Below are positions 15,772 through 52,321 of a stretch of DNA of 64,000 bases, piece by piece. Within the stretch, counting starts at the first letter, position 1. The number at the start of each line of letters is the position of its first letter. Position numbers and translations under genes: made by a program. This DNA is from Sinomicrobium weinanense (lineage in GTDB: Bacteria; Bacteroidota; Bacteroidia; Flavobacteriales; Flavobacteriaceae): NCBI RefSeq assembly GCF_018863395.1, contig NZ_JAHKRR010000002.1:248001-312000 (forward strand). The letters run 5' to 3'. The notes below the pieces were generated by a model that saw only the letters and a list, made by a program, of their open reading frames with translations, had not been told where the DNA came from and did not search any database.

Positions 15772-15854
15772 TGTGAGAGGGCGAGAAAGTGAGAAGGTGA
15801 GATAAAGTAGAAATATTGTATCCCCATCTCTCACCTTCTCACTTTCTCACCTTA
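15772..15854. repeat. Inverted 8-mer array filling a convergent gene gap
   Basis: Left arm: 8-base units of the GTGAGAAG type. A core reads AAAGTAGAAATATTGTATCC. Right arm: TTCTCACC-type units, complementary to the left arm. The element begins right after the stop codon of the zinc-ribbon gene and its last unit contains the stop codon (15852-15854) of the CBS gene. The same core, inverted, sits inside the array at 18838-18938. As RNA it would form a long imperfect hairpin, so it probably terminates both genes. Confidence 0.85.
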
Positions 15855-16316
15855 TCGCCAGTGATGCCCACTGATCTTCAGGGCAGCGAGCATTACATCC
15901 TTACGGCTTATTTGCCCTATTAAAAACCCGTTTTCCACTACCGGGAAACGGCGGTGCCTTGTTTTGTAAAATCGCGTTGCAGCATCGAAAATATTGGCAT
16001 CTCCATTGATGGTCAACACATCGGTTGACATATATTTTCCGACCGTCATATTGCCAATAGGCATATTGAAATAACGCCCTTCGGAGATCTGTTTCATACA
16101 ATCACTGTCTGATATGATCCCGATCAACCTGCCTTTCTCATCTACCACAGGCGCTCCGGTGATCTTGTTTTTCATAAAGGTCTCCATCACTTCCAGAAGG
16201 GTCTGTTCCGCAGTGAACGTAATCAGTTTCTTCGTCATGTGGTCTGCTACGGCTATGGGGTGGTCGTAGCTTCTTTTTATTTCTTCTCTCGCCCCTTGAA
16301 AACTTTTTATTCCCAT
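15852..16316 (-). CDS. CBS-domain protein
   Basis: A 154-residue cytoplasmic protein made of two CBS domains (about 25-80 and 92-150), which together bind adenine nucleotides and regulate partner proteins. Typical motifs are GAPVVDEKGRLIGIISDSD and RRFPVVENGFLIGQISRKD. I start at ATG 16316 (MGIKSFQGAR) because a TAAATTTA -7-like box lies at 16341-16348, downstream of the alternative ATG at 16370. No effector domain is fused, and the neighbours do not indicate the target. Confidence 0.85.
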   Translation of the reverse strand: MGIKSFQGAREEIKRSYDHPIAVADHMTKKLITFTAEQTLLEVMETFMKNKITGAPVVDEKGRLIGIISDSDCMKQISEGRYFNMPIGNMTVGKYMSTDVLTINGDANIFDAATRFYKTRHRRFPVVENGFLIGQISRKDVMLAALKISGHHWR

Positions 16317-16555
16317 GGTTGTCTCATTTTTGGTTCTTTCTAAATTTAGTGATTTATAATTAATTAACATAATTTTGAAGGTAATTTTATCAACAAAGCC
16401 TTAAAAATAACATTTCATCAACACAGCAATATTCTCGCCCGATCCGGGAATAAAGTGCTTATTTCTCCATATCCGCGGATATTCGTATTTTGTAGCTGGA
16501 AATTCTGTACAAACTAAACCGCCAAACCCGGACTTCGGGCCTAAAAAACAAATTG

Positions 16556-18865
16556 ATGAAACGCTATACCGTTACCCTGTCCCTCCTCTTTATTATAGGT
16601 ATCGTTTACTGGTCGTTCTACGACATTATGCCGCATACCTACACCAAGGAAAATGCCCCGGAAAACACCTTCTCGGCAGAAAGAGCACTGATCCTCGTCC
16701 GTGCCATGTCCCGACAACCGCATTATGTAGGCTCGCCGGCCCATAAGGAAGTGAGGGAATACCTCCTTTCGGAACTGAAAAAACTGGGACTGGAACCCGA
16801 AGTACAGGAAGGATATACCGCCGGTAACTGGGGTAACCTGAGCAAAGCCCGAAATATTCTCGCCCGGATAAAGGGAAGCGGGGACGGAAATGCCCTGATG
16901 TTGCTTTCTCATTACGACAGCAGCCCGCACTCTTCTTTCGGTGCCAGTGATGCCGCCAGTGGAGTGGCCACTATCCTGGAGGGAATACGCGCCTTTCTGC
17001 CTGAAAATAAAACCCCGGAAAACGACATCATCATCCTGTTTTCCGATGCGGAAGAACTGGGGCTCAACGGGGCAAGACTCTTTGTCAACCAGCATCCCTG
17101 GGCGAAGGATGTTAAACTCGTTCTGAACTTCGAGGCCAGGGGCAGTGGCGGGCCTGGTTTTATGCTGGTAGAGACCAATGGCGGAAATTCCGGGCTGATA
17201 CGGGAATTCACCAGGGCACAACCCCGATACCCGGTAAGCAATTCATTTATGTATAGCGTATATAAAATGCTGCCCAACGACACAGACCTCACTGTTTTTC
17301 GCGAAGACGGCAATATAGACGGTTTCAATTTTGCCTTTATCGATGATCATTACGACTATCACACAGCGCTGGACACAGAGCAGAGACTGGACCGTAATAC
17401 CCTGGAACACCAGGGCAGCTACCTTATGCCCCTGCTGCACTATTTCAGCAATGCTGATATTACCAACCTCAAAAGCGACGAGGATTACGTGTTTTTCGAC
17501 GGCCCGTTCACCTCGTTCATCTCCTATCCTTTTTCATGGATATGGCCCATGATGGGCATAGCGGCTGCGCTCTTCATTCTCCTCATCTTCTATGGCATCA
17601 GGAAAAAGAGCATTGTTCCGAAAGAAGTGTTCATCGGTATCATCCCTTTTGTTGTTTCTCTGCTTCTGTGCGGACTTATCGGGTATTACAGTTGGCCGGT
17701 TTTAAAAAAGGCCTATCCGGATTATGCCGATATCCTGCACGGATTTACCTATAACGGGTATTATTATATCGCAGCATTCACAGCCCTGAGCATTGCCATT
17801 TGTTTTTTTCTGTATCACAAATTCCACCATATCCGGCCGGTAAACCTGCTGATTTTTCCGGTTTTTCTATGGATCGTTATCTGTGGTTTACTGGGCGTTT
17901 ACCTGAAAGGGGCTTCCTTTTTCATCATCCCGGTATATGCGGCCCTGCTCTCGCTGCTGATACTTATCCGGCAGGAAAGGCCAAACCTGTTGCTCCAGGC
18001 CATACTGACCGTTCCCGCCATCTGGATATTCGCTCCTTTTATACAGATGTTTCCCATAGGACTCGGGCTAAAAATGATGATCGCCTCTACGCTCTTTACC
18101 GTGCTCCTGTTCGGGCTGTTACTCCCCGTGTTCGGGTTTTACAGACAACAACACAAACTGGCCCTGTTTGCCGGAGTACTCACCGTGGCATTACTGATAG
18201 CGGCCCATATCCAATCCGGATTTACCGAAAACAGCCCCAAACCAGACAGCCTGTTATACGTTCTCAACACGGACACAGGCAAAGCATCCTGGGCCACATA
18301 CGACCAGGTACCGGACGAATGGACCTCTGCCTATATCGGGCAGGACCCGCAAAAACCGGAAGACCTTTCCGCAACGACCATAGCCAGCAAATACAACACC
18401 GGTTTTTCCTATACGGCCGGGGCCACGGTAAAGCATATCCCACCTCCCCGGGTAGATATAGTGCACGACACTCTCAGGGGCACAGAACGGGAACTGGAAG
18501 TATGTATTACCCCGCAACGAAATGTCACCCGCCTGGAAGTGTTCTCCGATACGGAAAATATCATTTCCTGTAAAGTAAACGGCGTAGCACTTTCTCAAGA
18601 ATACCTCCGGAATCCCAAAAGAAAGGACCGGCTCTTTTCTCATTACATCACGGACAATGCCTATACCGAAATACTCCTTCGTATCCCGGCAGATGAAAAT
18701 CCGGAACTCACACTTTTCGAAGCCTCCAACGACCTGCTGGAAAACCCGCTGTTTACCGTTCCGCCCAGACCCAAAGACCGTATTCCCATGCCTTTTGTCC
18801 TCAACGATGCCATTGTCGTGAAAAAAACCGTTACTTTTGGAGAGGGTGAAAATGTGAGAAGGTGA
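16556..18865 (+). CDS. M28-family membrane metallopeptidase
   Basis: A 769-residue protein: an N-terminal anchor (about residues 5-24), an M28 aminopeptidase domain facing the periplasm (about 40-300), then about eight to nine transmembrane helices (about 320-560) and a soluble C-terminal domain. Zinc-site motifs are SHYDSSPHSSFGASDAASG near 120, FSDAEELGLNGA near 163 and YHTALDT near 265. This is similar in layout to Fxna/ERMP1-type peptidases. The last residues (GEGENVRR) and the stop codon are encoded by a GTGAGAAG repeat array, so the native C-terminus has probably been replaced. A TTG one codon upstream is a less likely start. Confidence 0.88.
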   Translation: MKRYTVTLSLLFIIGIVYWSFYDIMPHTYTKENAPENTFSAERALILVRAMSRQPHYVGSPAHKEVREYLLSELKKLGLEPEVQEGYTAGNWGNLSKARNILARIKGSGDGNALMLLSHYDSSPHSSFGASDAASGVATILEGIRAFLPENKTPENDIIILFSDAEELGLNGARLFVNQHPWAKDVKLVLNFEARGSGGPGFMLVETNGGNSGLIREFTRAQPRYPVSNSFMYSVYKMLPNDTDLTVFREDGNIDGFNFAFIDDHYDYHTALDTEQRLDRNTLEHQGSYLMPLLHYFSNADITNLKSDEDYVFFDGPFTSFISYPFSWIWPMMGIAAALFILLIFYGIRKKSIVPKEVFIGIIPFVVSLLLCGLIGYYSWPVLKKAYPDYADILHGFTYNGYYYIAAFTALSIAICFFLYHKFHHIRPVNLLIFPVFLWIVICGLLGVYLKGASFFIIPVYAALLSLLILIRQERPNLLLQAILTVPAIWIFAPFIQMFPIGLGLKMMIASTLFTVLLFGLLLPVFGFYRQQHKLALFAGVLTVALLIAAHIQSGFTENSPKPDSLLYVLNTDTGKASWATYDQVPDEWTSAYIGQDPQKPEDLSATTIASKYNTGFSYTAGATVKHIPPPRVDIVHDTLRGTERELEVCITPQRNVTRLEVFSDTENIISCKVNGVALSQEYLRNPKRKDRLFSHYITDNAYTEILLRIPADENPELTLFEASNDLLENPLFTVPPRPKDRIPMPFVLNDAIVVKKTVTFGEGENVRR

Positions 18866-18938
18866 GAAGGTGAGAGATTGGTATACAGTATTTCTACTTT
18901 CTCTCACTTTCTCACCTTCTCACATTCTCACTTTCTAA
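18838..18938. repeat. Inverted 8-mer array overlapping the peptidase 3' end
   Basis: GTGAGAAG-type units on the left, a core TGGTATACAGTATTTCTACT, and CTTTCTCA-type units on the right. The core is the reverse complement of that at 15801-15823, with a few differences. The left arm encodes the last eight residues and stop codon of the M28 peptidase. The right arm ends about 15 bases before the next start codon. Confidence 0.85.
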
Positions 18939-18953
18939 AAAAAGTCTATTCAA

Positions 18954-19751: not shown

Positions 19752-19756
19752 GTCTG

Positions 19757-19814
19757 TCCCCGTATCCCCAAACACCCGAAAACCCGAATACCGGGATACC
19801 CGGAAACCGGTTCC
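19757..19814. repeat. Degenerate CCCGAAAA-type 8-mer array
   Basis: Seven consecutive 8-base units: CCCGTATC, CCCAAACA, CCCGAAAA, CCCGAATA, CCGGGATA, CCCGGAAA, CCGGTTCC. It starts five bases after the SDR stop codon. No separate core is visible; the last two units are self-complementary. Confidence 0.75.
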
Positions 19815-20752: not shown

Positions 20753-23200
20753 ATGGAATGTATCCGAATGAGACCAAAAACCGTTTTTTTACTACTTTTC
20801 CTCGTATTGGTTAGTTGTACCACCCCGAAGAAAACAAATTCCGATCTCATTTCCCGTATCCCCGAAAACGCTTCGGTCATTGTTAAGATCCCCAACCCGC
20901 AGGCTTTTTTTAACGCATTAAAGAACAACACTTTCTTACAGGAGAACGCCCTGCTCCCTCCCGCACTGTCCCGGAAACTGGAAGCCCTGCGATTCCTGGA
21001 CAAAAAAAGCGAAGCCCTGCTTTGTGTGATCCGCACTTCCGACAGCCTTTACGATTTTACATATATCTCCCGGGATGTGGAGAACTACACCACACTCGAC
21101 TCTTTAAAAGATGGTGATACGAAAAACTCGTCGCTTAACAAAACTGCCATAAAACAGTTCTCTTCCGGAAAACACAAACTCTTTAACACAGTGGTAGACA
21201 GTATGTTCATATCCTCTTCCTCCGAACCGCTTATAGAAGAGAGCATCCTTGGAAAAAGCGAGGTAGGCAGGGAAAATTTCAGAAAAATATTTGCCCTGGC
21301 CGATAAAGACAAGCAGGCATCCGTATTTTTGCGCAACCATCCGTTCCATCCCGAAGACATTACCCGTACCGACAGTACTACGGCCCGAAAGCGGAATGCC
21401 GCTCAGCAGGACCACTGGACCATGTTCGACTTATCACTGTCTCCCGGCGAGTTGCTCCTTAGCGGTATAATACCAAACACGGATTCCCTGCCCGCAAACA
21501 CTTCGGCACAAATCGCCGAGAGAAAAACGATCGGGATCACCCCGGTTAATGCCCGGGGGGTACTTTCCTTTACTCCTGCTGATTTCAGCCGGGGAGACTC
21601 GCTGTCCGTATCCCCTGTGGGAGACCTTCTCGCATCTACCGACGAAGTAGGGATCATCTTCGGGGAAAAATACGATGCCGTGGTGTTTCACACTTTTGAT
21701 GCCGGTGTCGCGGAAAAGGCATTTTCTTCTTCTGCCGTGCTGAACACTACATTCAGGGACCACAACATTTACCAGATCGATCCCGTAGGCCCCTTTTCGC
21801 AAACCCTGCCTCCCTTTGGGGAAGGAAAAGAACTGATGTTCTACACCGCGATAGAAAACCATATTGTCCTGGCCCATACCGTCGATGCACTTACGGATCT
21901 TATCGTACAATACCAAAGCAAGTCTACCTTGAACAAGCGCACTTCATATACAAAGATCGCAGAGGAACTCCCGGATGTTTCTTCTTTACTGGCCGTAGGG
22001 ATGACTCCCGGGTTTAAGGAATTATTCCTGAAAAAACTATTCTCCGGCTACGGCAAAGACCTTTCCTTTTCGGTTTCAGACAATTTTCCGTATATGATCG
22101 TTCAGGGAGTCGCAGACCGTAATTACACTCATACCAACATCCTGCTCCGGAAACCCGGCTCCCGGAGATCGGCTTCGGGCATTTCCCAGAAATTCAATAT
22201 TGCCCTCGATGCCGATGTGGCGATCCCCCCGCAACTGGTTACCAATCACCAGAACAAACAAAAGGAAGTCGTTGTGCAGGATGTAGAGCACAACCTCTAC
22301 CTGATCTCCCGCGATGGAAAAGTCCTCTGGAAAAAGAAGTTGAACGGTAGGATCATAGGCCGGATAGCCCAGGTAGACATTTTCAGGAACGGAAGGCTAC
22401 AACTGGCCTTTACCCTTTCCGACGGCCTTTATATTGTGGACAGGAATGGAAAAGACGTATCTCCCTTTCCGGTGAAGGTAAAAAGCCCCATTACCAAAGG
22501 TCTGGCCGTGTTTGACTATGACAAGAACAAAAAGTACCGGTTTTTCATCACTCAAAACAACATTATAGTCCCGTTCAATGCCCAGGGAAAACGGGTTAAA
22601 GGATTTGACTTCAAGGGCACTCAAAGCCCCATTATCAACCCTCCCGAGCACATCAGGACAGGTTCCCGCGATTATATTGCCGTCCAGGAAGAGAACGGCA
22701 ACCTGCACCTTTTGCACCGTACAGGGAAAAAGAGGGTCAATGTCAAAGGGAAGATTGACTTTTCCGGAAACAAACTGTTCTTTTACAATGGCAAATTCAC
22801 CACCTCCAACAGCTCCGGCGACCTCGTTCAGGTAGACAAACAGGGCAGGCTCAACAAAAGACAACTCGGTCTCGCCAAAGACCATCACATCGACGCTACT
22901 TCCAGGACACTGGCCACACTCTCCGACAATATCCTCACCATAAAACAAAACAAATACGAACTCGATTACGGCATTTATACCCAGCCGGAGATCTTCTATA
23001 TTCACGATAAGATCTATGTGTCGGTAACAGATATACAGACCAAAAAGGTATATCTTTTTGACAGCAACGCCCTCCTGCTGGGCCATTTTCCGGTATACGG
23101 GACCTCCGCCATAGACCTGGCGGACCTGGACGGCAGAAGAAACCTCGGATTTGTAACCCAGGGGGAAAAGGATAAAGTCGTATTGTATGAAATTAAATAG
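20753..23200 (+). CDS. Large lipoprotein of unknown function
   Basis: An 815-residue protein with lipobox LVLVSCTT (Cys near residue 22). The first half (about 40-480) is a mixed alpha/beta region opening with RIPENASVIVKI. The second half (about 500-815) has repeated strands such as VEHNLYLISRDGKVLWKKKL and LYIVDRNGKDVSPFPVKV, typical of PQQ/WD-like beta-propeller blades. A GAGG motif six bases before the ATG supports this start; a second ATG lies five codons later. I recognise a lineage-typical gene but no biochemical function. It is followed by a 7-mer array and an esterase gene. Confidence 0.8.
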   Translation: MECIRMRPKTVFLLLFLVLVSCTTPKKTNSDLISRIPENASVIVKIPNPQAFFNALKNNTFLQENALLPPALSRKLEALRFLDKKSEALLCVIRTSDSLYDFTYISRDVENYTTLDSLKDGDTKNSSLNKTAIKQFSSGKHKLFNTVVDSMFISSSSEPLIEESILGKSEVGRENFRKIFALADKDKQASVFLRNHPFHPEDITRTDSTTARKRNAAQQDHWTMFDLSLSPGELLLSGIIPNTDSLPANTSAQIAERKTIGITPVNARGVLSFTPADFSRGDSLSVSPVGDLLASTDEVGIIFGEKYDAVVFHTFDAGVAEKAFSSSAVLNTTFRDHNIYQIDPVGPFSQTLPPFGEGKELMFYTAIENHIVLAHTVDALTDLIVQYQSKSTLNKRTSYTKIAEELPDVSSLLAVGMTPGFKELFLKKLFSGYGKDLSFSVSDNFPYMIVQGVADRNYTHTNILLRKPGSRRSASGISQKFNIALDADVAIPPQLVTNHQNKQKEVVVQDVEHNLYLISRDGKVLWKKKLNGRIIGRIAQVDIFRNGRLQLAFTLSDGLYIVDRNGKDVSPFPVKVKSPITKGLAVFDYDKNKKYRFFITQNNIIVPFNAQGKRVKGFDFKGTQSPIINPPEHIRTGSRDYIAVQEENGNLHLLHRTGKKRVNVKGKIDFSGNKLFFYNGKFTTSNSSGDLVQVDKQGRLNKRQLGLAKDHHIDATSRTLATLSDNILTIKQNKYELDYGIYTQPEIFYIHDKIYVSVTDIQTKKVYLFDSNALLLGHFPVYGTSAIDLADLDGRRNLGFVTQGEKDKVVLYEIK

Positions 23201-23275
23201 GGGTTGCCGGTTGCGAGTTCGCCAGTTCTTTTACTACTTAGCGACTTGTAACCTGCAACCTGTAACTTTAAAACC
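23201..23275. repeat. Inverted 7-mer array between lipoprotein and esterase genes
   Basis: Left units GGTTGCC, GGTTGCG, AGTTCGC; core around TCTTTTACTACTTAGCG; right units ACTTGTA, ACCTGCA, ACCTGTA, ACTTTAA. It starts right after the upstream stop codon and ends at the ATG of the next gene, so it fills the gap. The right arm resembles the end of the array at 62228-62342. Confidence 0.8.
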
Positions 23276-25648: not shown

Positions 25649-25745
25649 CATGAAAAACAGATGCAAGACGATAAGATGAAAGACATAAGACACAGAAGCT
25701 ACATCGGCCATCCTATGTCTTATACCCTGAAATCCTGAGTCTAAC
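25649..25745. repeat. Degenerate 8-mer array with AAGACATA-type units
   Basis: Units on the left include AGATGCAA, GACGATAA, GATGAAAG and ACATAAGA. The right arm is around TATGTCTTAT and AATCCTGAGTCT, partly complementary. The short core is CTACATCGGCCATC. It lies between the FadL and lipase genes. Confidence 0.6.
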
Positions 25746-29134: not shown

Positions 29135-29271
29135 AAAAAGCCGGAGAGCACCTTACTACCCCATAATACAACAGCAATGTCCCACCCAGGATCACGGGAT
29201 ATTATAAGTATGCCTTGAAAACGGGCAAAAATTTGGTAAGCAGGAAAAAAATTATTTATTCATACGGCAAA

Positions 29272-29619
29272 ATGGGCTTCATAAAAAAAATAAGGCAGAA
29301 CAAATGGTTTTCCTTCTTTAGCAATATATACGTTATAGTGCTTACGGTATTTGCGGTATGGATGATCTTTTTCGATACCAATTCGCTGATGACTCATGTG
29401 GAACTCGAAAAGGAGATCGACAAACTGCAAAAACAGAAAGAGTATTTGCGGAAAGAAATTGAAAAAGACAAGGAAATGATCCGGAACCTGGAAAATGACA
29501 ATAACGTAGAAAAATTTGCCCGGGAAGAATATTACTTCAAGAAAGACAATGAAGAAATATACATCATAGAACACCAGGACAGTATAGATCAAAGTAAAAA
29601 GAAGGAGGAAAAGGAATAG
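29272..29619 (+). CDS. FtsB/DivIC-family septum formation initiator
   Basis: A 115-residue division protein with a short cytoplasmic N-terminus, one transmembrane helix (about 16-33, IYVIVLTVFAVWMIFFD), then a leucine/lysine-rich coiled coil (about 44-75) and the conserved NNVEKFAREEYYFKKDNEEIY signature. It works with FtsL/FtsQ at the septum. I choose the ATG at 29272, since the upstream TTG-start extension lacks similarity to the family. Confidence 0.88.
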   Translation: MGFIKKIRQNKWFSFFSNIYVIVLTVFAVWMIFFDTNSLMTHVELEKEIDKLQKQKEYLRKEIEKDKEMIRNLENDNNVEKFAREEYYFKKDNEEIYIIEHQDSIDQSKKKEEKE

Positions 29620-29627
29620 CGGAAAAT

Positions 29628-29662
29628 GATGGGGAGACCGGGGTGACGGGGTGTCCGGGAGA
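29628..29662. repeat. Short GACCGGGG-type 8-mer array
   Basis: Four 8-base units, GATGGGGA, GACCGGGG, TGACGGGG and TGTCCGGG, directly after the DivIC stop codon. A short complementary-looking array (TGTCTCCC, CATCACCC) is at 44875-44898. Confidence 0.55.
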
Positions 29663-29819: not shown

Positions 29820-29821
29820 GT

Positions 29822-35386: not shown

Positions 35387-36282
35387 TGGCAAAAGCAACA
35401 AAAAAACAAGCATTAGGACGAGGATTATCGGCATTGTTGAAAGACCCGGAGAACGACATCAAAACGGCTTCGGACAAAAATGCCGATAAAGTAGTAGGGA
35501 ATATTGTTGAACTGGATATAGAATCCATCGAGGTCAATCCGTTTCAGCCACGTACCAATTTCAACGAGGATACGTTGCAGGAACTGGCCACTTCCATTAA
35601 GGAACTGGGGGTCATCCAGCCCATCACCGTACGAAAAATAGAATTTAACAAATATCAGCTCGTTTCCGGAGAGCGCCGGTTCCGGGCTTCCAGGCTCGTA
35701 GGATTAAAAACTGTCCCCGCCTATATCCGTATAGCCAATGACCAGGAATCCCTGGAAATGGCACTGGTTGAAAATATTCAGCGGCAGGACCTCGACCCCA
35801 TAGAGATCGCACTTTCCTACCAGCGGCTTATCGATGAAATACAGCTCACCCAGGAGCAGCTTAGTGACCGGGTAGGTAAAAAGCGTTCTACCATAGCCAA
35901 CTACCTCCGGCTCCTGAAACTGGACCCCATCATCCAGACCGGAATGCGCGACGGCTTCGTGAGTATGGGGCACGGAAGGGCCCTGATCAACCTGGACGAC
36001 AAGGAAATACAACTCGCCATTTACGAAAAGATCATTTCCAGTGGCCTCTCCGTGAGGGAAACGGAAAAACTCGTGAAAAATCTCCAGGAAAAAGACAAAA
36101 AGACCACTTCAGACACTTCCAAAAACAAATTACCTTCCTATATCGATGATAAAATGGAGAACATCACCGAATACTTTTCCACTAAAGTAGACGTTAAGGT
36201 ATCCAGGAACGGTAAAGGGAAGCTCATTATCCCCTTTCATTCCAGGGAAGATTTTATTCGCCTGACCAAACTCTTTAAGTAA
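35386..36282 (+). CDS. parB: Chromosome-partitioning protein ParB
   Basis: A 298-residue ParB/Spo0J protein. The N-terminal CTPase/nuclease-like domain has NPFQPRTNF near 52 and the C-motif/box GERRFRASRL near 96. ALVENIQRQDLDPIE follows near 123, then a helix-turn-helix (LSDRVGKKRSTIANYLRLL near 160-178) and a C-terminal dimerisation region. The stop overlaps the next start by one base. Chromosomal parA-parB at this position with DUF5683 and dapB is normal for flavobacteria. Confidence 0.95.
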   Translation: MAKATKKQALGRGLSALLKDPENDIKTASDKNADKVVGNIVELDIESIEVNPFQPRTNFNEDTLQELATSIKELGVIQPITVRKIEFNKYQLVSGERRFRASRLVGLKTVPAYIRIANDQESLEMALVENIQRQDLDPIEIALSYQRLIDEIQLTQEQLSDRVGKKRSTIANYLRLLKLDPIIQTGMRDGFVSMGHGRALINLDDKEIQLAIYEKIISSGLSVRETEKLVKNLQEKDKKTTSDTSKNKLPSYIDDKMENITEYFSTKVDVKVSRNGKGKLIIPFHSREDFIRLTKLFK

Positions 36283-36920
36283 TGGTAGTCCGACTACTCC
36301 CGGTTCTTTTCGCCTGTCTCTTTTCGCTGGGATGCGGTAGCGTTTTTGCTCAGGAAAAAGAAGAACAGGATGCCGCCAGCGATTCCGCAAATGTGGAAAA
36401 CCGCGTGGTCATAGATTCCATCATTCCCGAAAAACATACCATAGACCCCCTGTCTCCCAGTAAGGCTGCTTTTTATTCGGCCATACTGCCCGGACTGGGA
36501 CAGATATACAACAAGAGATACTGGAAAGTCCCACTGGTTTATGGGGCCATAGGAACAGGACTTTATTTCTATGTCACCAACAAAGATCAATACCACAGGT
36601 ACAGAAATGCCTATAAGCGAAGACTTGCCGGTTTTAATGATGATGAGTTTTATAATATTGACGGAACCCCCAATGAAGATGGAAGTCCCGATGTGAGTAT
36701 GGATGCTCTCCGCAGGGCCCAGGAATATTACCAGCGTTACAAAGACCTCTCCCTGCTCATCACCATAGGCCTTTATGCCCTGAACATCATAGACGCCAAT
36801 GTAGACGCACACCTCAAACAACATAATATAGGCGAAGACCTCACCCTCCGTCCCATGATCATCCCGAACGACTTCAATGCAAAGACTACGGTAGGCCTGT
36901 CGCTGAGTTTTGATTTTTGA
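36282..36920 (+). CDS. DUF5683-domain membrane protein
   Basis: A 212-residue exported protein. A signal peptide (about 1-24, ending SVFAQ) is followed by an acidic region and the DUF5683 pattern SPSKAAFYSAILPGLGQIYNKRYWKVPLVYGA near residues 60-90, containing a hydrophobic hairpin. A second hydrophobic segment is near 155. The C-terminus ends in a strand-like LSLSFDF, as in outer-membrane proteins. The function is not established. It is translationally coupled to parB (TAATG), so it is probably made together with the partition proteins. Confidence 0.85.
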   Translation: MVVRLLPVLFACLFSLGCGSVFAQEKEEQDAASDSANVENRVVIDSIIPEKHTIDPLSPSKAAFYSAILPGLGQIYNKRYWKVPLVYGAIGTGLYFYVTNKDQYHRYRNAYKRRLAGFNDDEFYNIDGTPNEDGSPDVSMDALRRAQEYYQRYKDLSLLITIGLYALNIIDANVDAHLKQHNIGEDLTLRPMIIPNDFNAKTTVGLSLSFDF

Positions 36921-36928
36921 CCTATCTT

Positions 36929-37062
36929 TAGAGATGTGAGATGTGAGATGTGAGATAAAAGTAAAAAAATTCGGAAGAAAAAATTAAAAGATAAATTAAA
37001 TTTCTCCCCGGAGGGATAACTTGTCCCGATGACAATGGGAATGCCAAAGGCATAGGGGCCTG
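36929..37062. repeat. GAGATGT 7-mer array followed by a decayed GC-rich palindrome
   Basis: Three GAGATGT units plus GAGATAAAAGTAAAAAA (36931-36967), echoing the core side of the array at 15772, then TTTCTCCCCGGAGGG and GGGAATGCCAAAGGCATAGGGG, a divergent right half of the GC-rich palindromic element. A small palindrome TTGTCCCGATGACAATGGGA has been added between the halves. Confidence 0.6.
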
Positions 37063-37066: not shown

Positions 37067-37173
37067 CTGCCCTTCGGCTTGGCTCAGGGACCAAAACCTG
37101 AAACCTGAAACCTGAAACCTGAAACCTGAAACCTGAAACCTGAAACCTGAAACCTGAAACCTGAAACCTGAAA
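37067..37173. repeat. Perfect 11-copy CCTGAAA tandem array with core
   Basis: The core CTGCCCTTCGGCTTGGCTCA (37067-37086), followed by GGGACCAAAA, leads into eleven uninterrupted copies of CCTGAAA at 37097-37173. The array ends 16 bases before the dapB start codon. Related core and arms occur at 3790-3893, 48178-48232 and 62228-62342. Perfect identity of the units suggests recent expansion by slippage. Confidence 0.95.
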
Positions 37174-37189
37174 CAAAAATAAACAACAA

Positions 37190-37891
37190 ATGAACATAGC
37201 TTTACTGGGATACGGCAAAATGGGAAAAATGATAGAACAGATAGCCCTTTCCCGGAATCATACGATCACCGCGCGGATCGATAGTGAATTTAGTGTAGAA
37301 GACCTCAAAGATACTGACGTGGCCATAGATTTCAGCATTCCTTCTGCCGCTTTTAAGAATATAACCACCTGCCTGGAAAACGACATCCCCGTAATTTCCG
37401 GTACCACCGGATGGCTGGACCGTTACGACGAAGCCGTGGAGCTTTGCAACAGGCGCAAGGGCGCCCTTATTTATGCCTCTAATTTTAGCCTGGGTGTAAA
37501 TATATTTTTCCAGTTGAACGAATACCTGGCTAAAATGATGGCCAACCTCGGGGAATATGACATAAGCCTCGAAGAGATCCATCATACCCAAAAACTGGAT
37601 GCTCCCAGCGGAACGGCTATTACCCTGGCCGAAGGCATTATAAAAAATAGCTCCAGGACAGGATGGAAACTGGACAATGCCGGGGAAAACGAGATCCCCA
37701 TAACGGCAAAACGTATAGAGAACGTGCCCGGTACCCACAGCATACGCTATTCCGGAAATGTAGACGATATCGAGATCACCCATACCGCACACAGCCGGGA
37801 AGGATTTGCCCTCGGAGCGGTTATCGCGGCAGAATGGATCGTTGGGAAGACCGGGGTTTTCAGTATGAAAGACGTGTTAAACCTTGGTTAG
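37190..37891 (+). CDS. dapB: 4-hydroxy-tetrahydrodipicolinate reductase
   Basis: A 233-residue enzyme of the diaminopimelate/lysine pathway; reduces hydroxy-tetrahydrodipicolinate with NAD(P)H. The nucleotide motif GYGKMGKMIE is at residues 7-16. The substrate motif ISGTTGW is near 71. The catalytic region EIHHTQKLDAPSGTA is near 128-142. The length is a little shorter than the E. coli enzyme, as is usual in this lineage. Its leader contains the CCTGAAA array, so slippage there could change expression. Confidence 0.96.
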   Translation: MNIALLGYGKMGKMIEQIALSRNHTITARIDSEFSVEDLKDTDVAIDFSIPSAAFKNITTCLENDIPVISGTTGWLDRYDEAVELCNRRKGALIYASNFSLGVNIFFQLNEYLAKMMANLGEYDISLEEIHHTQKLDAPSGTAITLAEGIIKNSSRTGWKLDNAGENEIPITAKRIENVPGTHSIRYSGNVDDIEITHTAHSREGFALGAVIAAEWIVGKTGVFSMKDVLNLG

Positions 37892-38008: not shown

Positions 38009-39544
38009 ATGACACTAACAGAATGGTTTATATTTTTCCTCGTCCTGCAACTGGTTCATTTTGCCGGGACCTGGAAACTGTACCAAAAAGCCGGAAGAAA
38101 AGCATGGGAAGCCTTGGTCCCCGTTTATAACGCTGTGATACTGATGAAGATCATCAACAGGCCCTGGTGGTGGATCATCCTGTTGTTTATCCCCATAGTA
38201 AACCTCATTATGTTCCCGGTGGTCTGGGTAGAAACGGCCCGGAGTTTCGGTAAAAATTCAGCAACAGACACCTGGCTTACCGTACTCACTCTCGGCCTGT
38301 ACATCTATTACATCAATTATGCCCTCGATGTTACATATATAGCGGACAGGAGCCTTAAGCCCAAAACAGTCACAGGAGAATGGGTGAGCTCCATCCTTTT
38401 TGCCATCGTGGCCGCAACACTGGTACATACATACATTATGCAGCCTTATGTCATTCCCACTTCATCACTGGAAAAATCACTGCTGGTGGGCGACTTCCTC
38501 TTTGTAAGCAAGTTCCACTACGGTGCCAGGCCCCCAATGACGGCAATAGCTGCCCCCATGGTACACGACACCATCCCCGGGCTTAAGGTCAAATCCTATC
38601 TGAACAAGCCCCAGCTACCCTATTTCCGGTTCCCTGCCCTCCAAAAGATAAAACGGAATGACATTGTGGTCTTTAACTGGCCTACGGATACCGTGCGCTA
38701 TTTTGGCGACTACAAAAGCCGGGGCATAAGAAAACCCATAGACAAAAAATCCAACTACGTTAAAAGATGTGTCGGCACCCCCGGGGATTCCCTGGAGATC
38801 AGGGATGGTTATGTTTATATCAACGGCAAAAGGACACAGTTACCCGACCGGGCAAAAACACAGTATTCCTATATTGTAAAAACCAACGGCGGTGAACTCA
38901 CCCCTGCATATATGTACCAAAGATTTGGTGTCACCGACCCCTTCGGCAGAGCACAGGACGGTTCTTACCGTTTTACTTCACTCACCGAAGAAAGTGCTTC
39001 CCGCCTGGCCAAAACCCCTAATGTAACAAGCGTAACACGGATCATAAACCCCGGAGGGCGGCCCCATCCCGACATTTTTCCGAATATCAGGGACAACACC
39101 TGGAGCAGGGACAATTTCGGGCCGATATACATCCCGGAAGAAGGAAAAACAGTAAGTCTGACTCCCGAAACCCTCCCCTTTTACAAGCAGATCATAAAAG
39201 AATACGAAAACAATACACTTGAAGTAAAAGGAAACCAGATCCTTATCAACGGTAAACAGGCCAACTCTTACACCTTTAAGCAAAATTACTACTGGATGAT
39301 GGGCGACAACCGCCACAATTCGGAAGACAGTAGGTACTGGGGCTACGTTCCGCACGACCATATCGTCGGCAAACCCGTGTTTATATGGATGAGCTGGGAC
39401 AGCAACAGCGGAAAACCCCGGTGGGACCGTATCTTCACCACGGTCGGAGGTCCGGGAAAGCCCGTTTCCTATCTGAAATACTTCCTTATTGTTATCGCTG
39501 CATGGATCATTTTTAGTTTTATACGGAAGAAAAAGAAAAAATAA
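38009..39544 (+). CDS. lepB: Signal peptidase I (first copy)
   Basis: A 511-residue inner-membrane peptidase that removes signal peptides. A DUF5684-like membrane domain (about 1-110, with KAWEALVPVYNA) precedes the peptidase. The catalytic Ser is in PTSSLEKSLLVGD near 155. The catalytic Lys is in YVKRCVGTPGDSLEI near 252. Box E MGDNRHNSEDSRYWG is near 431. A long insertion of about 160 residues between the last two boxes is common in Bacteroidota. The C-terminus has one more membrane helix and a poly-Lys tail. A second copy is 890 bases downstream. Confidence 0.93.
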   Translation: MTLTEWFIFFLVLQLVHFAGTWKLYQKAGRKAWEALVPVYNAVILMKIINRPWWWIILLFIPIVNLIMFPVVWVETARSFGKNSATDTWLTVLTLGLYIYYINYALDVTYIADRSLKPKTVTGEWVSSILFAIVAATLVHTYIMQPYVIPTSSLEKSLLVGDFLFVSKFHYGARPPMTAIAAPMVHDTIPGLKVKSYLNKPQLPYFRFPALQKIKRNDIVVFNWPTDTVRYFGDYKSRGIRKPIDKKSNYVKRCVGTPGDSLEIRDGYVYINGKRTQLPDRAKTQYSYIVKTNGGELTPAYMYQRFGVTDPFGRAQDGSYRFTSLTEESASRLAKTPNVTSVTRIINPGGRPHPDIFPNIRDNTWSRDNFGPIYIPEEGKTVSLTPETLPFYKQIIKEYENNTLEVKGNQILINGKQANSYTFKQNYYWMMGDNRHNSEDSRYWGYVPHDHIVGKPVFIWMSWDSNSGKPRWDRIFTTVGGPGKPVSYLKYFLIVIAAWIIFSFIRKKKKK

Positions 39545-40435: not shown

Positions 40436-42016
40436 ATGACTCTAACAGGCTGGTTTCTCTTTTTTCTCATATTACAACTGATCCATTTTGCCGGGACCTG
40501 GAAACTGTACCAAAAAGCCGGAAGAAAAGCATGGGAGGCCCTCGTCCCCGTCTATAATGCCCTGGTCCTGATGAAGATTATCAACAGGCCCTGGTGGTGG
40601 GCGGTCCTGTTGTTCATCCCTATCGTAAACCTTATGATGCTCCTGGTGATCTGGGTAGAGACTGCCCGGAGTTTCGGTAAAAATTCCACATCAGATACCT
40701 GGTTAACGGTGTTGACCCTGGGGTTCTATATCTATTATATCAATTATGCCCTGGACGTCAAATACATCGAAAACAGAAGTCTTCATCCCAAGACCGCTTC
40801 CGGAGGATGGGTCAACTCCCTTCTTTTTGCTATCATAGCCGCAACGCTGGTGCACACCTATTTTATGCAACCTTATATCATTCCCTCCTCTTCTCTGGAA
40901 AAATCACTGCTGGTAGGCGATTTTCTCTTTGTGAGCAAGTTCCATTACGGAGCCAGGGCACCCATGACCACAATTGCCGCTCCCATGGTACACGACAGCC
41001 TTCCCGGACTGGGAATCAAATCGTATGTATTCAATGATAATATATCGAAAAAACATACTTCGTGGTTAAACAAATTCCAGCTACCCTATTTTCGCTTACC
41101 GGGACTTCAGAAGATAAAACGCAACGAGATCGTTGTTTTCGGACAGCCTGCGGACACCTTGCGGGACATGAATGATTTTCACCCCGACAGGAATTACTAT
41201 AAACCCGTAGACAAAAAGACCAACCTGGTAAAACGATGTGTAGGTATTCCCGGAGATTCCCTGGAGATCAGGGATGGTTATGTTTATATCAATGGTAAAA
41301 GGCCCCAGCTGCCGGACCGGGCGGAAATACAGTATTCCTATATCGTAAAGACCAACGGCAGTGAACTCAACCGTCCGTATATGTACCAGAGGTTTGATGT
41401 TACCGATCCTTTTGGCAGAATGCAGGACGGTTCTTACCATTTTACCGCACTTACCGAAGAAAATGCCGCCCGCCTGGCAAAAACTCCCAATGTAGTAAGC
41501 GTAGAGCGGATCATAGAACCGGCAGGCAGTCCCAACCCTCGCATTTTTCCAAACACCCGGAACAACACCTGGAGCGGGGATAATTTCGGTCCCATTTACA
41601 TCCCGGAAAAAGGAAAAACGGTGCCCCTTACCCCGCAAACCCTGCCGCTCTACAAAAGGATCATAAGGGAATATGAAAACAATACCCTGGAAACAAAGGA
41701 AGGGCAGATACTGATCAACGGAAAACAGGCCGATTCCTACACTTTTAAACAGGATTATTACTGGATGATGGGCGATAACCGCGACAATTCGATAGACAGC
41801 AGGTATTGGGGCTACGTTCCGTACAACCATGTTGTGGGCAAACCCGTCCTTATCTGGATGAGTTGGGACAAAGAAAGCAAAAGAATACGCTGGGACCGGG
41901 TCTTAAGCACCGTTCACGGCACAGGAAAACGGGTTTCCTACTTTCCGCATTTTGCCATTGTGCTGGCCGGATGGTTTGTTTACAGCTATATACGTAAAAG
42001 AAAAAAGAAGAAATAA
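40436..42016 (+). CDS. lepB: Signal peptidase I (second, tandem copy)
   Basis: A 526-residue paralogue of the gene at 38009-39544. Catalytic Ser in IPSSSLEKSLLVGD near 154, Lys in LVKRCVGIPGDSLEI near 268, box E MGDNRDNSIDSRYWG near 447: all intact, so it should be active. It carries an extra segment of about 15 residues (FNDNISKKHTSWLN) in the substrate-side region. Some DNA stretches are almost identical to the first copy (for example GACCTGGAAACTGTACCAAA), which suggests duplication or gene conversion. It ends directly at the next start codon. Confidence 0.92.
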   Translation: MTLTGWFLFFLILQLIHFAGTWKLYQKAGRKAWEALVPVYNALVLMKIINRPWWWAVLLFIPIVNLMMLLVIWVETARSFGKNSTSDTWLTVLTLGFYIYYINYALDVKYIENRSLHPKTASGGWVNSLLFAIIAATLVHTYFMQPYIIPSSSLEKSLLVGDFLFVSKFHYGARAPMTTIAAPMVHDSLPGLGIKSYVFNDNISKKHTSWLNKFQLPYFRLPGLQKIKRNEIVVFGQPADTLRDMNDFHPDRNYYKPVDKKTNLVKRCVGIPGDSLEIRDGYVYINGKRPQLPDRAEIQYSYIVKTNGSELNRPYMYQRFDVTDPFGRMQDGSYHFTALTEENAARLAKTPNVVSVERIIEPAGSPNPRIFPNTRNNTWSGDNFGPIYIPEKGKTVPLTPQTLPLYKRIIREYENNTLETKEGQILINGKQADSYTFKQDYYWMMGDNRDNSIDSRYWGYVPYNHVVGKPVLIWMSWDKESKRIRWDRVLSTVHGTGKRVSYFPHFAIVLAGWFVYSYIRKRKKKK

Positions 42017-43779: not shown

Positions 43780-43911
43780 TTTTTAGTTTTGGAGTTGATG
43801 AGTTTTTAAACTTAAAAAGATCTCTTTTTCTCCCCTTGAGAGGAGATGCCGCAGGCAGAGGGGTGTAACTCCCTAACTCCAGGACTCCCATACTCCTAAA
43901 CTCCCCGACTA
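43780..43911. repeat. 8-mer arrays flanking a GC-rich half-element
   Basis: Left units TTTTAGTT, TTGGAGTT, GATGAGTT; then AAAAAGATC and TCTCCCCTTGAGAGGAGATG...GGCAGAGGGGTGT (43826-43866, right half of the GC-rich element); then right units AACTCCCT, AACTCCAG, GACTCCCA, TACTCCTA, AACTCCCC, GACTACTCC. The right arm complements the left arm. The last unit contains the stop codon of the rhomboid gene (43909-43911). A near twin is at 52190-52321. Confidence 0.85.
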
Positions 43912-44784
43912 CTCCTTCCCCGCCTGGAACAGGAAATCCTTTTCTTCCTTGGTAAGGCTTTCGTAGCCGCTTTTACTGATCTTGTCCAGTATATCATCGA
44001 TCTTCTGCTGGTGGTCGCTTTTATCCGTATTAGGTCTCTTTACAGAAGTTGTTGCTTTTCTGTTTCTGTGCACTGTTTTCAGGGGAGCCTGGGGTTTTCT
44101 TTTAAACAGGTTTACCACAGCCGATACCATCTTTTCAAAACCGGAGCCTATGTCCTTGCCTTCATACAGTTTTCTGGCATATACATATCCCAGCAGCGCA
44201 CCGCCCAGGTGAGCCAGGTGGCCTCCTGCATTGTTTATGGGGATCTGCACCAGGTCTATAAGCACCACAAATACGCCGATATACCACAGTTTTATATTGA
44301 AGAGAAAGAACAACCGCACTTCCTGGTTGGGCATATACGTGCAGATAAAGATCAGGATGGCCATAACTGCTGCGGAAGCCCCTATAAGAGAGGTGTTGAT
44401 CCCGAGGAATGCCGGGAAAAGATTATAGCTCAGCATAAAAATAAACCCTCCCGCAATAGCGCCCAGGAAATAAACATTAAGGAACCGTCTTCCGCCAAAC
44501 AGGTTCAGGAATATCCTGCCCGAAAAATAGAGCAGTATCATATTCCAGAAAATATGCGAAAAGCTACCGTGAAAAAAAGCATAAGTAACAATAGACCACG
44601 GCTGTACAATAAAATGATCCAGGCTTTTCGGCAATTCGAACCATCGCATAAAAAAATCGGGCGATAACTGAAACAGGAATATCAGCAATATATTGAGAAT
44701 ATACACCAATACATTGATCACGATCAGCTTTTCGCCTACGTTGAGCGTGGTGTATTTGTATTTTATATCGTTGCTTATACCCAT
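43909..44784 (-). CDS. Rhomboid-family intramembrane serine protease (with C-terminal extension)
   Basis: A 291-residue polytopic protease with about six transmembrane helices in the first 210 residues. The catalytic Ser is in LIGASAAVMAI near 133 (usual form GxSG; here GASA). The catalytic His is in GGHLAHLGGALLGY near 190. The cytoplasmic tail is basic and ends in a DUF6576-like segment (KIDDILDKISKSGYESLTKE). It is the second of two adjacent rhomboid genes, 113 bases after the first. Its stop codon is inside a repeat array. Confidence 0.88.
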   Translation of the reverse strand: MGISNDIKYKYTTLNVGEKLIVINVLVYILNILLIFLFQLSPDFFMRWFELPKSLDHFIVQPWSIVTYAFFHGSFSHIFWNMILLYFSGRIFLNLFGGRRFLNVYFLGAIAGGFIFMLSYNLFPAFLGINTSLIGASAAVMAILIFICTYMPNQEVRLFFLFNIKLWYIGVFVVLIDLVQIPINNAGGHLAHLGGALLGYVYARKLYEGKDIGSGFEKMVSAVVNLFKRKPQAPLKTVHRNRKATTSVKRPNTDKSDHQQKIDDILDKISKSGYESLTKEEKDFLFQAGKE

Positions 44785-48712: not shown

Positions 48713-48714
48713 GC

Positions 48715-49479: not shown

Positions 49480-49500
49480 CTTAAGACTATGTTTGTGCCG

Positions 49501-49508: not shown

Positions 49509-49539
49509 AAATTTTTATTGATATATGAAAGACTATTTA

Positions 49540-49723
49540 TTCGATAAATTTCATTAGTTTAGGCATCTTTCAGGGTCAATCAGATCATTAAACAATGTGA
49601 TTATTTGATAATTTAGCAATATTGTCATCGAATAATTTTTTATCCGTTGACCAATTTGACACATGGGCAAATTAACTCATTGGCACACTGGCGTATTGAT
49701 CAATTGGCTAATTAACCAAAAAA
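49540..49723. repeat. Long ATTGGCAA-type 8-mer array upstream of recF
   Basis: About eighteen degenerate 8-base units in phase, for example GTCAATCA, GATCATTA, AACAATGT, GATTATTT, GATAATTT on the left and TTTGACAC, ATGGGCAA, ATTAACTC, ATTGGCAC, ATTGATCA, ATTGGCTA, ATTAACCA on the right, around CGAATAATTTTTTATCCG. Left and right arms are approximately complementary. It fills the divergent gap between the TPR and recF genes, ending five bases before the recF ATG. Confidence 0.75.
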
Positions 49724-49727
49724 AAGC

Positions 49728-50804
49728 ATGTTTTTAAAAAAATTATCCTTAATAAACTATAAGAATTTCGGTTCGGGCGATTTTGAATTTGACGAGAAGA
49801 TCAACTGTTTTGTAGGCCATAACGGTATTGGAAAGACCAACGTGCTGGATGCCATTTATCACCTTTCCTTCGGGAAGAGTTATTTTAACCCCATAGCGGT
49901 GCAAAACATAAAGCACGGCGAAGACTTTTTTGTGATTGACGGGGAATTTGAAAAGACAGGACATACGGAACACGTGATCTGCAGCCTGAAGAAAGGACAG
50001 AAAAAGGGGATAAAACGCAACGGCAAGACCTACGACAAGCTATCGGACCACATCGGGCTCCTGCCGCTGGTGATCATTTCACCGGCAGACCGTGACCTCA
50101 TCATAGAAGGAAGTGAGACCCGGAGAAAATTTATAGACAGTGTCATTTCCCAGTCAGACAAGGAGTACCTTAACCACCTTATCCTCTACAACAGGGCACT
50201 GGTACAGCGCAATTCGCTGCTGAAATATTTTGCACTGAACTATACCTACGACCACGATACGCTTTCCATATACAACGACCAGTTGCACACACATGGCACG
50301 GAAGTGTTCAACGCGAGAAAGCAGTTCCTGGAAGAATTTATCCCCATCTTCCGCGAACGTTACCAGTCTATTGCCGCTAACGGGGAAAAGGTAGATATTA
50401 CCTATAACAGCCAGCTCCTGGAGCAGCCGCTGGACGAACTGCTCAAGATAAGCGTCAACAAAGACAAGGCTGTGCAGCATACCAGTGCAGGGATACATAA
50501 GGACGACCTCAGTTTTGAGATCGAAGGGTTCCCGATCAAAAAATTCGGAAGCCAGGGACAGCAAAAATCCTTCCTCATCGCCCTGAAACTGGCACAGTTT
50601 GATTTTATCCGCCAGCAGGCCAAGGTACCGCCCATCCTTCTGCTGGATGATATTTTTGATAAGCTGGACGAAAACCGGGTGGCCCAGATCGTAAAGCTCA
50701 TGGACGAAAATTTCGGGCAACTGTTCATCAGCGACACTCATCCAGACCGGACGGAAGCAGTAGTCCGGGATACACATCAATCGTATAAGATGTTTAAACT
50801 TTAG
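49728..50804 (+). CDS. recF: DNA replication and repair protein RecF
   Basis: A 358-residue SMC-like ATPase that loads RecA at gaps with RecO and RecR. Walker [14 protein letters not shown] is at residues 29-41. The signature motif [18 protein letters not shown] is near 275. Walker [18 protein letters not shown] is near 301. Length is normal. It is followed by a lipocalin-like lipoprotein and a DciA-like gene, the latter a common neighbour of recF. The leader consists of an 8-mer array. Confidence 0.95.
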
Positions 50805-50828
50805 GATTTCAATGCTCAAAAATTTAGT

Positions 50829-51275: not shown

Positions 51276-51343
51276 ATGAAAACAAATCTGTTATCCTGTA
51301 ATCGGGGGTTAACTAAGGTCGAAGGGTAGAAACAAAAATCACA

Positions 51344-51640
51344 ATGGCAAAACGATACGGCGAACAGATGTCATTATCGGACGGATTAAAAGCCTTTATT
51401 GAGCAAAACAGACTACAATCCGGGATGGACAAGATCGATGTCCGGGAAGCCTGGAAACAGCTCATGGGCAACGGTATCAACACCTATACTTCAGATGTAC
51501 AGTTAAAGGGCGATACTTTATATGTGAGCCTTACTTCATCTGTTCTCCGGGAAGAATTGAGTTACGGAAAACAGAAGATCATAAAAATGATCAATGACGA
51601 ACTGGGGAAAGAACTGGTAAAAAACCTGATATTAAGATAA
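51344..51640 (+). CDS. DUF721/DciA-like protein
   Basis: A 98-residue protein with the DUF721 pattern: an amphipathic N-terminal helix (LSDGLKAFIEQNRLQSG), VREAWKQLMGNGINTYT near 28-44, and the KGDTLYVSLTSSVLREELSY strand-helix unit. DciA proteins help load the replicative helicase in bacteria without DnaC. Association with recF supports a replication role. The start is a clear ATG after an A-rich leader. Confidence 0.85.
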   Translation: MAKRYGEQMSLSDGLKAFIEQNRLQSGMDKIDVREAWKQLMGNGINTYTSDVQLKGDTLYVSLTSSVLREELSYGKQKIIKMINDELGKELVKNLILR

Positions 51641-51648
51641 CTACAATC

Positions 51649-51711
51649 CTGTCACATCGAGCCCTTCGATAAACTCAGGATAAACTAAAGTCGAAGGGCT
51701 CTGGGTGACAG
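51649..51711. terminator. Long hairpin between convergent genes
   Basis: Arms of 21 bases at 51649-51669 and 51691-51711 pair through GAGCCCTTCGA / TCGAAGGGCTC and CTGTCAC / GTGACAG, with two mismatches. The 21-base loop contains ACTCAGGATAAACTAAAG, shared with 28424-28446. It lies between the DciA-like and ndk stop codons and could terminate both. Confidence 0.8.
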
Positions 51712-51716
51712 TATAA

Positions 51717-52136
51717 TTAGAATATCTCCCTTCCGGAAAAATGGAATGCGCTCTCTATTGCAGCATTTTCGTCGCTGTCCGAACCGTGTACGGCATTTTC
51801 TCCAATAGAAGTAGCATACAATTTACGGATAGTTCCTTCAGCTGCTTCCGCCGGATTCGTAGCTCCTATAAGTGCCCTGAAGTCGTCCACCGCATTTTCC
51901 TTTTCAAGAACGGCAGCCACGATCGGCCCCCTGGTCATAAATTCTACCAGCTCACCAAAGAAAGGGCGCTCCTTGTGAATGGCGTAAAACTCTTCAGCAT
52001 CCCGCCTGCTCAGTTGCGTGTATTTCATAGCTACGATCTTAAAACCTGCGGCTGTGATCTTTTCTAAAATAGCCCCGATATGTCCGTTTTCCACTGCATC
52101 GGGTTTAATCATGGTAAATGTTCTGTTTGTTGCCAT
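51717..52136 (-). CDS. ndk: Nucleoside diphosphate kinase
   Basis: A 139-residue enzyme that equalises NTP and dNTP pools through a phospho-His intermediate. [13 protein letters not shown] is near the N-terminus, and the active His is in [15 protein letters not shown] near 115. Length and motifs are normal. I use ATG 52136 because the promoter at 52158-52188 lies inside the possible longer frame starting at 52187, so that start cannot be used. Confidence 0.97.
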
Positions 52137-52157
52137 TTGCTTGTTTAAAATTTTGTG

Positions 52158-52188
52158 CAAATGTAGTTCTTTAGCCAGAAAGTACAAA
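52158..52188 (-). promoter_or_regulatory. Consensus promoter of ndk
   Basis: Minus strand: TTTG (52185-52188), exactly 19 bases, then TACATTTG (52158-52165). This is a full match to the Bacteroidota consensus TTTG-N19-TAnnTTTG. It fixes the ndk start downstream at 52136. Confidence 0.85.
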
Positions 52189-52189
52189 G

Positions 52190-52321
52190 TTGGGGAGTTT
52201 TGGAGTTGGAGAGTCCCGGAGTCTTGGAGTTAAAAAGATTACTTCTCTCCCCTTGAGGGGAGATGCCGCAGGCAGAGGGGTGTAACTCCCCAACTCCAAA
52301 ACTCCAGGGCTCCAAGACTTA
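52190..52321. repeat. 8-mer arrays flanking a GC-rich half-element (twin of 43780-43911)
   Basis: Left units GGGGAGTT, TTGGAGTT, GGAGAGTC, CCGGAGTC, TTGGAGTT; then AAAAAGATT and CTCCCCTTGAGGGGAGATG...GGCAGAGGGGTGT (52243-52282); then right units AACTCCCC, AACTCCAA, AACTCCAG, GGCTCCAA, GACT. The arms are complementary. The right arm runs into the stop codon of the DUF4838 gene (52319-52321). Confidence 0.88.

Follow-up and report, generated by a model that had tools for sequence, protein, structure and literature searches.

What kind of DNA fills gaps between the genes of Sinomicrobium weinanense (Flavobacteriaceae) with short units that keep a strict register while their letters drift? The question arises from a stretch of 64,000 nucleotides (contig NZ_JAHKRR010000002.1, positions 248,001 to 312,000; hereafter the window), in which an original prediction had described degenerate 8-base tandem arrays set as complementary arms at five intergenic loci, with no function assigned. 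Here, we found that such arrays occur with both 7- and 8-bp units and obey a polarity rule: regardless of gene direction, the strand reading towards a gene is AC-rich (AACTCC, AACCTG), and the strand reading out of it is GT-rich. A birth-and-decay process is the most economical account. We give about an even chance to the view that the arrays are repeat DNA born by slippage, patched by template switching and for the most part neutral, related in kind to heptamer repeats known from earlier work.

Array statistics were collected over 464 kb of the 5.36-Mb genome, window included, by all-against-all unit identity at periods 4-13; all gene-relative counts use mechanical open reading frame (ORF) calls, not annotation. 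With five units, a threshold of 0.6 and shuffles made by first-order Markov resampling, we detected 19 arrays of period 8 (0.7 in shuffles) and 41 of period 7 (1.3 in shuffles). The corresponding numbers were 18 versus 3.3 at period 6, 42 versus 18.3 at period 5, and 6 versus 0 for periods 9-12 summed. The excess is concentrated mainly at periods 7 and 8, and the 7-bp class is larger than the 8-bp class. Thus, the predicted degenerate 8-base arrays are real, because shuffling fails to reproduce the lag-8 signal, but that signal is only half of the picture. Most arrays lay outside genes (35/41 at period 7 and 15/19 at period 8), where 13% of the bases are intergenic, and head-to-tail copies of short units (1-11 bp) beyond chance, as in long simple sequence repeats, are present. 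In the window, 7-bp arrays include those at 3801, 23241, 36927, 37094 and 62246. Pairwise unit identity is about 0.56-0.8 in most listed arrays, and drift, proposed earlier as the distinction from microsatellites, finds no support as one, since perfect arrays of identical units also occur in this genome. The 7-base class, centres resembling repetitive extragenic palindromes (REP) and the polarity had all been overlooked.

At the five predicted loci, arrays were recovered at 15772-15856, 18835-18942, 43782-43912 and 52188-52315. At the fifth, 49540-49723, the array covers only about 49570-49722, and the sequence before it belongs to a conserved block, presumably the promoter of a RecF-like gene. 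Three shorter one-sided arrays had been assigned the same period: the one at 19757 has period 8, that at 25649 has period 15 in Tandem Repeats Finder (TRF), and that at 29628 gave TRF periods of 8 and 17, the period-8 row being weak (score 31). Units do differ between loci as claimed, yet they are grouped into a few recurring families, of 8 bp (AACTCCNN, GTGAGAAN, AATTGGCN) and of 7 bp (AGGTTNN, GGTNNTC, AAGTNCG). The constancy of the design was borne out, as it recurs at other loci and in relatives and is not produced by shuffles. It is scarcely credible that chance or low complexity made the arrays. In its favour one may cite the weak arrays at 25649 and 29628, and the lack of polarity (4/9) in nine weak arrays taken from named contigs and from randomly chosen stretches of other genera, in a locus check whose 27 GGTTNNN-scan rows include duplicate loci. 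On the other side, shuffle controls are low and reversed-pattern controls are 0 in this genome; for the array set as a whole we rejected chance, as shuffles and reversed patterns yield fewer arrays.

Only arrays whose AC-GT difference was 2 or more entered the polarity counts. At 40 nt or less from a gene, 48/54 arrays of the genus followed the rule, and by gene pair the counts were 15/18 (tandem forward), 22/23 (tandem reverse), 4/4 (convergent) and 7/9 (divergent), with one locus per place except for the overlapping L159/L162. At the same distance it held in 7/7 arrays at further genus loci and in 11/13 from other genera (15 loci, nine with such arrays); with ORFs of at least 130 aa the three counts were 43/51, 6/6 and 11/11. 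Five gene models gave AC-sense arrays at 17/17 to 23/25 starts and GT-sense arrays at 24/28 to 25/30 stops within 40 nt, and for stops every model at 40 and 80 nt had p ≤0.0012. A separate count near gene ends gave 20/23 starts and 25/32 stops, and the dedicated loci L200-L259 kept the rule at 3/3 starts and 19/23 stops. In the control, the 60 nt beside genes (gaps of at least 80 nt), AC was in excess before starts (61% vs 27%) and not after stops (40% vs 45%). The rule was weaker when arrays were assigned by gap halves (55-63 of 75-84 across five models; lowest values 9/19 for divergent and 5/10 for convergent gaps). It was not significant with a 150-nt limit under a late-ATG model (starts 13/18, stops 28/50), which is deliberately poor and displaces starts by as much as 25% of the ORF length. 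Only three GT-sense and seven AC-sense arrays were counted as coding, and therefore the bias from ORF calls swallowing GT-rich arrays before starts is small. The rule looks new; no report of polar degenerate 7/8-bp arrays was found in searches of open-licence PMC papers.

Many gaps share a common anatomy, in which a centre separates a GT-rich left arm from an AC-rich right arm. The array pairs in 384 gaps (864 kb, four genomes) were GT-AC in 20 cases, AC-GT in two and of other kinds in seven. The two arms were related in 12/20 GT-AC pairs, being closer to each other than 75% of arms taken from different gaps, and closer than 95% in 5/20. Arms of plainly different families were found at 36927/37094, L174 and L198, the last with a 7-bp and an 8-bp arm. 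Mirrored variants exceeded column-shuffled arms in 5/15 pairs (p<0.05). The predicted complementarity produced good RNA folds (plus strand only) at 15772, 18838 and 52190 (z -8.5, -12.2 and -4.1), a weak one at 43780 (z -1.9) and none at 49540 (halves -0.4 and +0.6, entire array -0.65). The REP-like palindrome of the 43780 and 52190 centres has five occurrences at ≤3 mismatches, of which four carry AACTCC/GGAGTT arms; L235 and L259 (in the sister species G001) resemble these places. The centres at 15772 and 18838 are mutually related, and the latter occurs at only two places at ≤1 mismatch in 5.36 Mb, a third (three mismatches) being at control level.

Pattern scans covered 60 relatives, and long arrays are counted many times in their totals. 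Three ACTCCNNN units matched in six genomes (62 here, 85 in G001, 7 in G002, 2 in G003, 1 in G004 and 3 in G011), and the reversed pattern gave 0 in all six and 14 in G025. Four GGTTNNN units were present in 19 genomes, including 78 matches here, 40 in G003, 5 in G001, 149 in G109 and 42 in G029, with reversed-pattern controls of 0, 0, 0, 2 and 7. As reversed GGTTNNN, itself a 7-bp array, is at least as frequent as the pattern in several genomes (G007, G015 and G026 among them), only genomes with a large excess over it were used. Under a common filter (four units, 0.64, not low-complexity, not coding), we counted 56 arrays in 464 kb here, 14 in 300 kb of G001, 7 in 460 kb of other genera of the family (23 stretches), 3 in 340 kb outside the family (17 stretches) and 2 in three named contigs. 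Amplification is lineage-specific and differs between unit families. A TTTCGTA heptamer array was also seen further afield, in G049, a distant member of the phylum sample (L105 17060).

Comparison with G001 pointed to fast turnover. In 39 syntenic gaps (threshold 0.6), arrays were present in both genomes at 4, here only at 7, in G001 only at 2 and in neither at 26. With other ORF calls the numbers were 2, 6, 0 and 30 (38 gaps), a count in which the gap at 23200 was entered as here only owing to the ORF call; at this gap G001 has a different, 8-bp AATTGAC-like array (by eye) instead of the 7-bp hairpin. Upstream of the RecF-like gene (Pfam SMC_N), the conserved block is kept in 5/6 genus genomes searched, and the array, which this genome shares with G001, is absent from G002, G003 and G004. 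Identity to G001 at this locus is 80/151 (53%) for the array, 58/64 (91%) for the block and 520/600 for the coding start. Neither copy of the array folds clearly better than shuffles (z -0.65 here, -1.33 in G001), and the pairing is not kept. Judging from these gaps, arrays are gained and lost fast.

Drift is a matter of degree, with a continuum from perfect to drifted arrays. Perfect ones include AAACCTG x11.6 at 37094 and arrays of AACTCCAA, AACTCCAC, AACTCCCC and GGTTGAC in L218, L219, L234 and L238; in L218 and L234 the perfect array plainly stands opposite a drifted arm (by eye). Because perfect and drifted versions of the same units coexist, and a perfect array faces a drifted arm at these two loci, drift looks like age. 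Departures from consensus in 86 arrays comprised 303 transitions and 361 transversions. In G001, the AACTCC array of L210 has two unit variants in regular alternation, giving a 16-bp super-period, which suggests slippage by two units.

We propose that replication slippage creates and lengthens the 7/8-bp arrays, in some cases around REP-type palindromes, as the perfect arrays and shared centres suggest. Between facing arms that belong to one family, template switching would transfer variants, in keeping with the mirrored variants; that hairpins can be created and mended in this way is described in PMC8794818. Point mutation would then degrade the units with the register surviving, an order in time read from the observed continuum. 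The arrays would mostly be neutral or selfish spacer DNA with fast turnover. Polarity would be kept both by that of the palindromic element itself and by selection on start-codon leaders, with AC-rich, G-poor ones being tolerated and GT-rich ones not. Bacteroidetes lack Shine-Dalgarno (SD) sequences, and initiation is tuned by leader structure (PMC6847099).

Several observations weigh against this account. AC/GT dinucleotides vary least (0.232 vs 0.306 under rotation, p 0.0005, 86 arrays), AAC/GTT is the least variable trinucleotide (0.176, among those with at least 40 cells), and columns are uneven in 10/80 arrays at p<0.05, where 4 are expected. These patterns are not what purely even decay would predict, although the effect is modest. 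Shared-gap arrays were somewhat above chance (Fisher p 0.042, 0.013 and 0.060 in three settings). Under stricter unit permutation, mirroring reached ≤0.05 in only 3/15 pairs; with 5/15 by column shuffle and related arms in 12/20, mirrored arms in every pair had to be rejected. Convergent gaps, which have no start codon, are still polar (12/13 within 40 nt; 9/10 with ORFs of at least 130 aa), and polarity is kept in gaps with arms of different families (L174 and L198). Polarity at convergent gaps and between unrelated arms is least well explained by slippage and neutral decay, and therefore we keep open the reading of the arrays as boundary signals.

It is possible, if unlikely, that some Bacteroidota mark gene edges with polar 7/8-bp arrays as bidirectional boundary signals whose function lies in register and polarity, not in sequence. 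In this reading, changeable unit families would surround an AAC/GTT anchor, and families, and even the period, would be exchangeable at one gap (23200, with 7 bp here and 8 bp in G001). A specific mechanism, which we consider unlikely, is that on either strand a transcript leaving a gene passes a GT array and, ahead of the next gene, meets an AC array, where Rho halts read-through in both directions. The AC array, C-containing and G-poor with a unit every 7-8 nt, resembles a Rho utilization (rut) site; a Rho gene is present; near gene edges the polarity does not depend on which way the genes run, convergent gaps included; and intrinsic terminators are fewer at array stops (3/35 vs 53/278), in the predicted direction. 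However, this difference was not significant (p 0.16), convergent gaps are the poorest in arrays (+- 3/54 vs ++ 12/118, -- 17/87 and -+ 8/78), AC arms are also found immediately upstream of start codons, a position in which a rut site is expected to be harmful, and the arrays come and go fast. A terminator function is unsupported. Intrinsic terminators were rejected as an identity, given T-run terminators at 3/35 array stops and arrays that also occur in divergent gaps and are rarest in convergent ones, and no Rfam family matched in the window at gathering scores. The arrays might instead act in leaders, with the ribosome or an RNA-binding protein reading, in the RNA, the AAC that recurs every 7-8 nt before the start and so tuning translation, which is MacGregor's proposal for the TAACTGA heptamers compared below (PMC4679880). 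The AC-sense near starts (17/17 to 23/25 by gene model) agrees with this, as do 12/14 TAACTGA sets of F. litoralis that run forward 1-43 nt before a start in that paper. Sense AAC recurs at lag 8 (43 vs 18.9) and lag 7 (33 vs 20.3) in the 316 leaders where no array was detected, and GTT does not, but AAC is also raised at lag 11 (32 vs 17.8) and the dinucleotide AC is not in excess at either lag 7 or lag 8. The leader AAC signal of the family's other genera is weak (z 2.5 at lag 7 and 1.1 at lag 8), and after stops in array-free gaps GTT gave no signal at lags 7 and 8, with one at lag 16. The AAC recurrence may be a leader signal or the remains of arrays decayed below threshold. A leader role leaves the stop-codon arrays (25/32 GT-sense) unexplained, the array upstream of the RecF-like gene is not conserved across the genus, and we rate such a role as quite unlikely.

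Decidedly unlikely, in our opinion, is a non-autonomous mobile element with inverted arms of direct repeats (inverted repeat/direct repeat-like ends) and a trans-acting protein recognising the AAC/GTT anchor. The fixed polarity and conserved anchor, the related centres at several loci, the short G001 gaps where an array stands here and the flank repeats resembling target-site duplications at 19757 and 25649 (by eye) are consistent with it. Against it, both flank repeats are imperfect, the 18838 centre is confined to two places at ≤1 mismatch, and the three Y1 transposase loci carry other palindromes, no other transposase having been sought. These three genes (L063, L064 and L065; RAYT-like) each have their own small flanking palindromes, which are other than the 7/8-bp arrays, and REP arms driven by a RAYT were rejected on this ground.

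The features of the window are collected in Table 1.

Table 1. Arms, centres and arrays in the window (positions from its first letter).
Feature	Positions	Strand	Context
GT arm, 8-bp units GTGAGAAG	15772..15802	.	directly 3' of stop of ORF 15424-15771 (+)
Centre	15803..15828	.	reverse strand matches 18838-locus centre (GRTATACARTATTTCTACTTT, 1 mismatch)
AC arm, units CTTCTCAC	15829..15856	.	89% complementary to GT arm across 28 nt; RNA fold z -8.5
GT arm, units GGTGAGAA	18835..18877	.	overlaps 3' end of M28 peptidase ORF 16553-18865
Centre GGTATACAGTATTTCTACTTT	18878..18899	.	
AC arm	18900..18942	.	86% complementary to GT arm; variant unit mirrored
One-sided AC array, 8-bp units AACACCCG	19771..19810	.	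missing from orthologous G001 gap
7-bp hairpin array, GGTTGCC arm (by eye) then AACCTGN arm	23201..23268	.	++ gap
Weak GT-type array	29627..29659	.	3' of stop of ORF 29215-29619; TRF periods 8 and 17
7-bp GT arm GAGATGT	36927..36956	.	3' of stop of ORF 36282-36920
Perfect AC array AAACCTG x11.6	37094..37174	.	5' of start of ORF 37190-37891
Degenerate GT arm, units AGTTTTGG	43782..43815	.	
REP-like palindrome, centre	43832..43865	+	
AC arm, units NACTCCNN	43866..43905	.	
Strongly drifted 8-bp arms (AATTGGCN family)	49570..49722	.	5' of RecF-like ORF 49728-50804
GT arm, units AGTTNNGG	52188..52227	.	5' of start of NDK ORF (51717-52187, -)
REP-like palindrome, centre	52249..52282	+	
AC arm, units AACTCCNN	52284..52315	.	

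The 37094 array has no complementarity to the 36927 arm. In addition, the window contains two REPIN-like inverted pairs of the REP CCCCTCTGCCTTCGGCATCTCCCC (3307-3444 and 6498-6624), with related sequence between their arms, which were not seen in the corresponding G001 stretches. The neighbouring ORFs 38009-39544 and 40436-42016 look like a tandem duplicate, and each matches the other's G001 counterpart (about 74-75% DNA identity). A 327-bp tandem duplication (1.9 copies, 85% matches) lies at 55610-56228 inside ORF 54623-56554.

If the polarity is functional, the arrays would be a boundary signal that is invisible to sequence-based annotation, because what it conserves is register and strand composition instead of letters. 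Should they be neutral, the genus would be a good system for observing the birth of repeats, their mirroring into hairpins and their decay, and a warning against taking every strong intergenic hairpin of Bacteroidota for a terminator or a structured RNA.

Among known systems, the short tandemly repeated repetitive (STRR) heptamers of cyanobacteria, the nearest analogue in the original prediction, form 7-bp intergenic arrays as here but have fixed sequences. REP/REPIN elements with RAYT are also intergenic and palindromic, and REP-like cores are central at 43780 and 52190. In contrast to them, the arms here are tandem arrays and only some centres are REP-like, so that identity with REP/REPIN (a conserved high-copy palindrome of 20-40 bp) was rejected. 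The BrickBuilt miniature inverted-repeat transposable element (MITE) of Porphyromonas gingivalis is likewise an inverted-repeat element that carries tandem repeats between the genes of a Bacteroidetes genome, but it has a 23-bp minisatellite unit and one family of 19 copies in one strain (PMC4596501). Heptanucleotide arrays are the most frequent in many prokaryotic genomes, with slippage proposed (Mrazek 2007, as cited in PMC4679880). Long simple sequence repeats are defined there by longer-than-expected runs, whereas most of the arrays here are degenerate and polar, and many are inverted.

Of the described cases found, the intergenic TAACTGA heptamers come closest, direct repeats reported from Beggiatoaceae, Cyanobacteria and five Bacteroidetes (MacGregor 2015, PMC4679880). 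The exact TAACTGA was not among the units seen here (AACTCCNN, AGGTTNN, GGTNNTC, GTGAGAAN, AATTGGCN and others), although no scan was aimed at it. Both systems have 7-bp AAC units that are mostly intergenic and form some very long arrays, and in both the same gap is empty in close relatives. Both also have an AAC-containing unit lying forward before start codons, and F. litoralis has one reversed set just after a stop, so that 13/14 of its TAACTGA sets follow the polarity rule as read here. TAACTGA, however, is one fixed unit, with related heptamers rare in BOGUAY and one indirect repeat reported, whereas the arrays of S. weinanense comprise several families, have 8-bp units too, are drifted, form paired arms and are polar at both gene ends.

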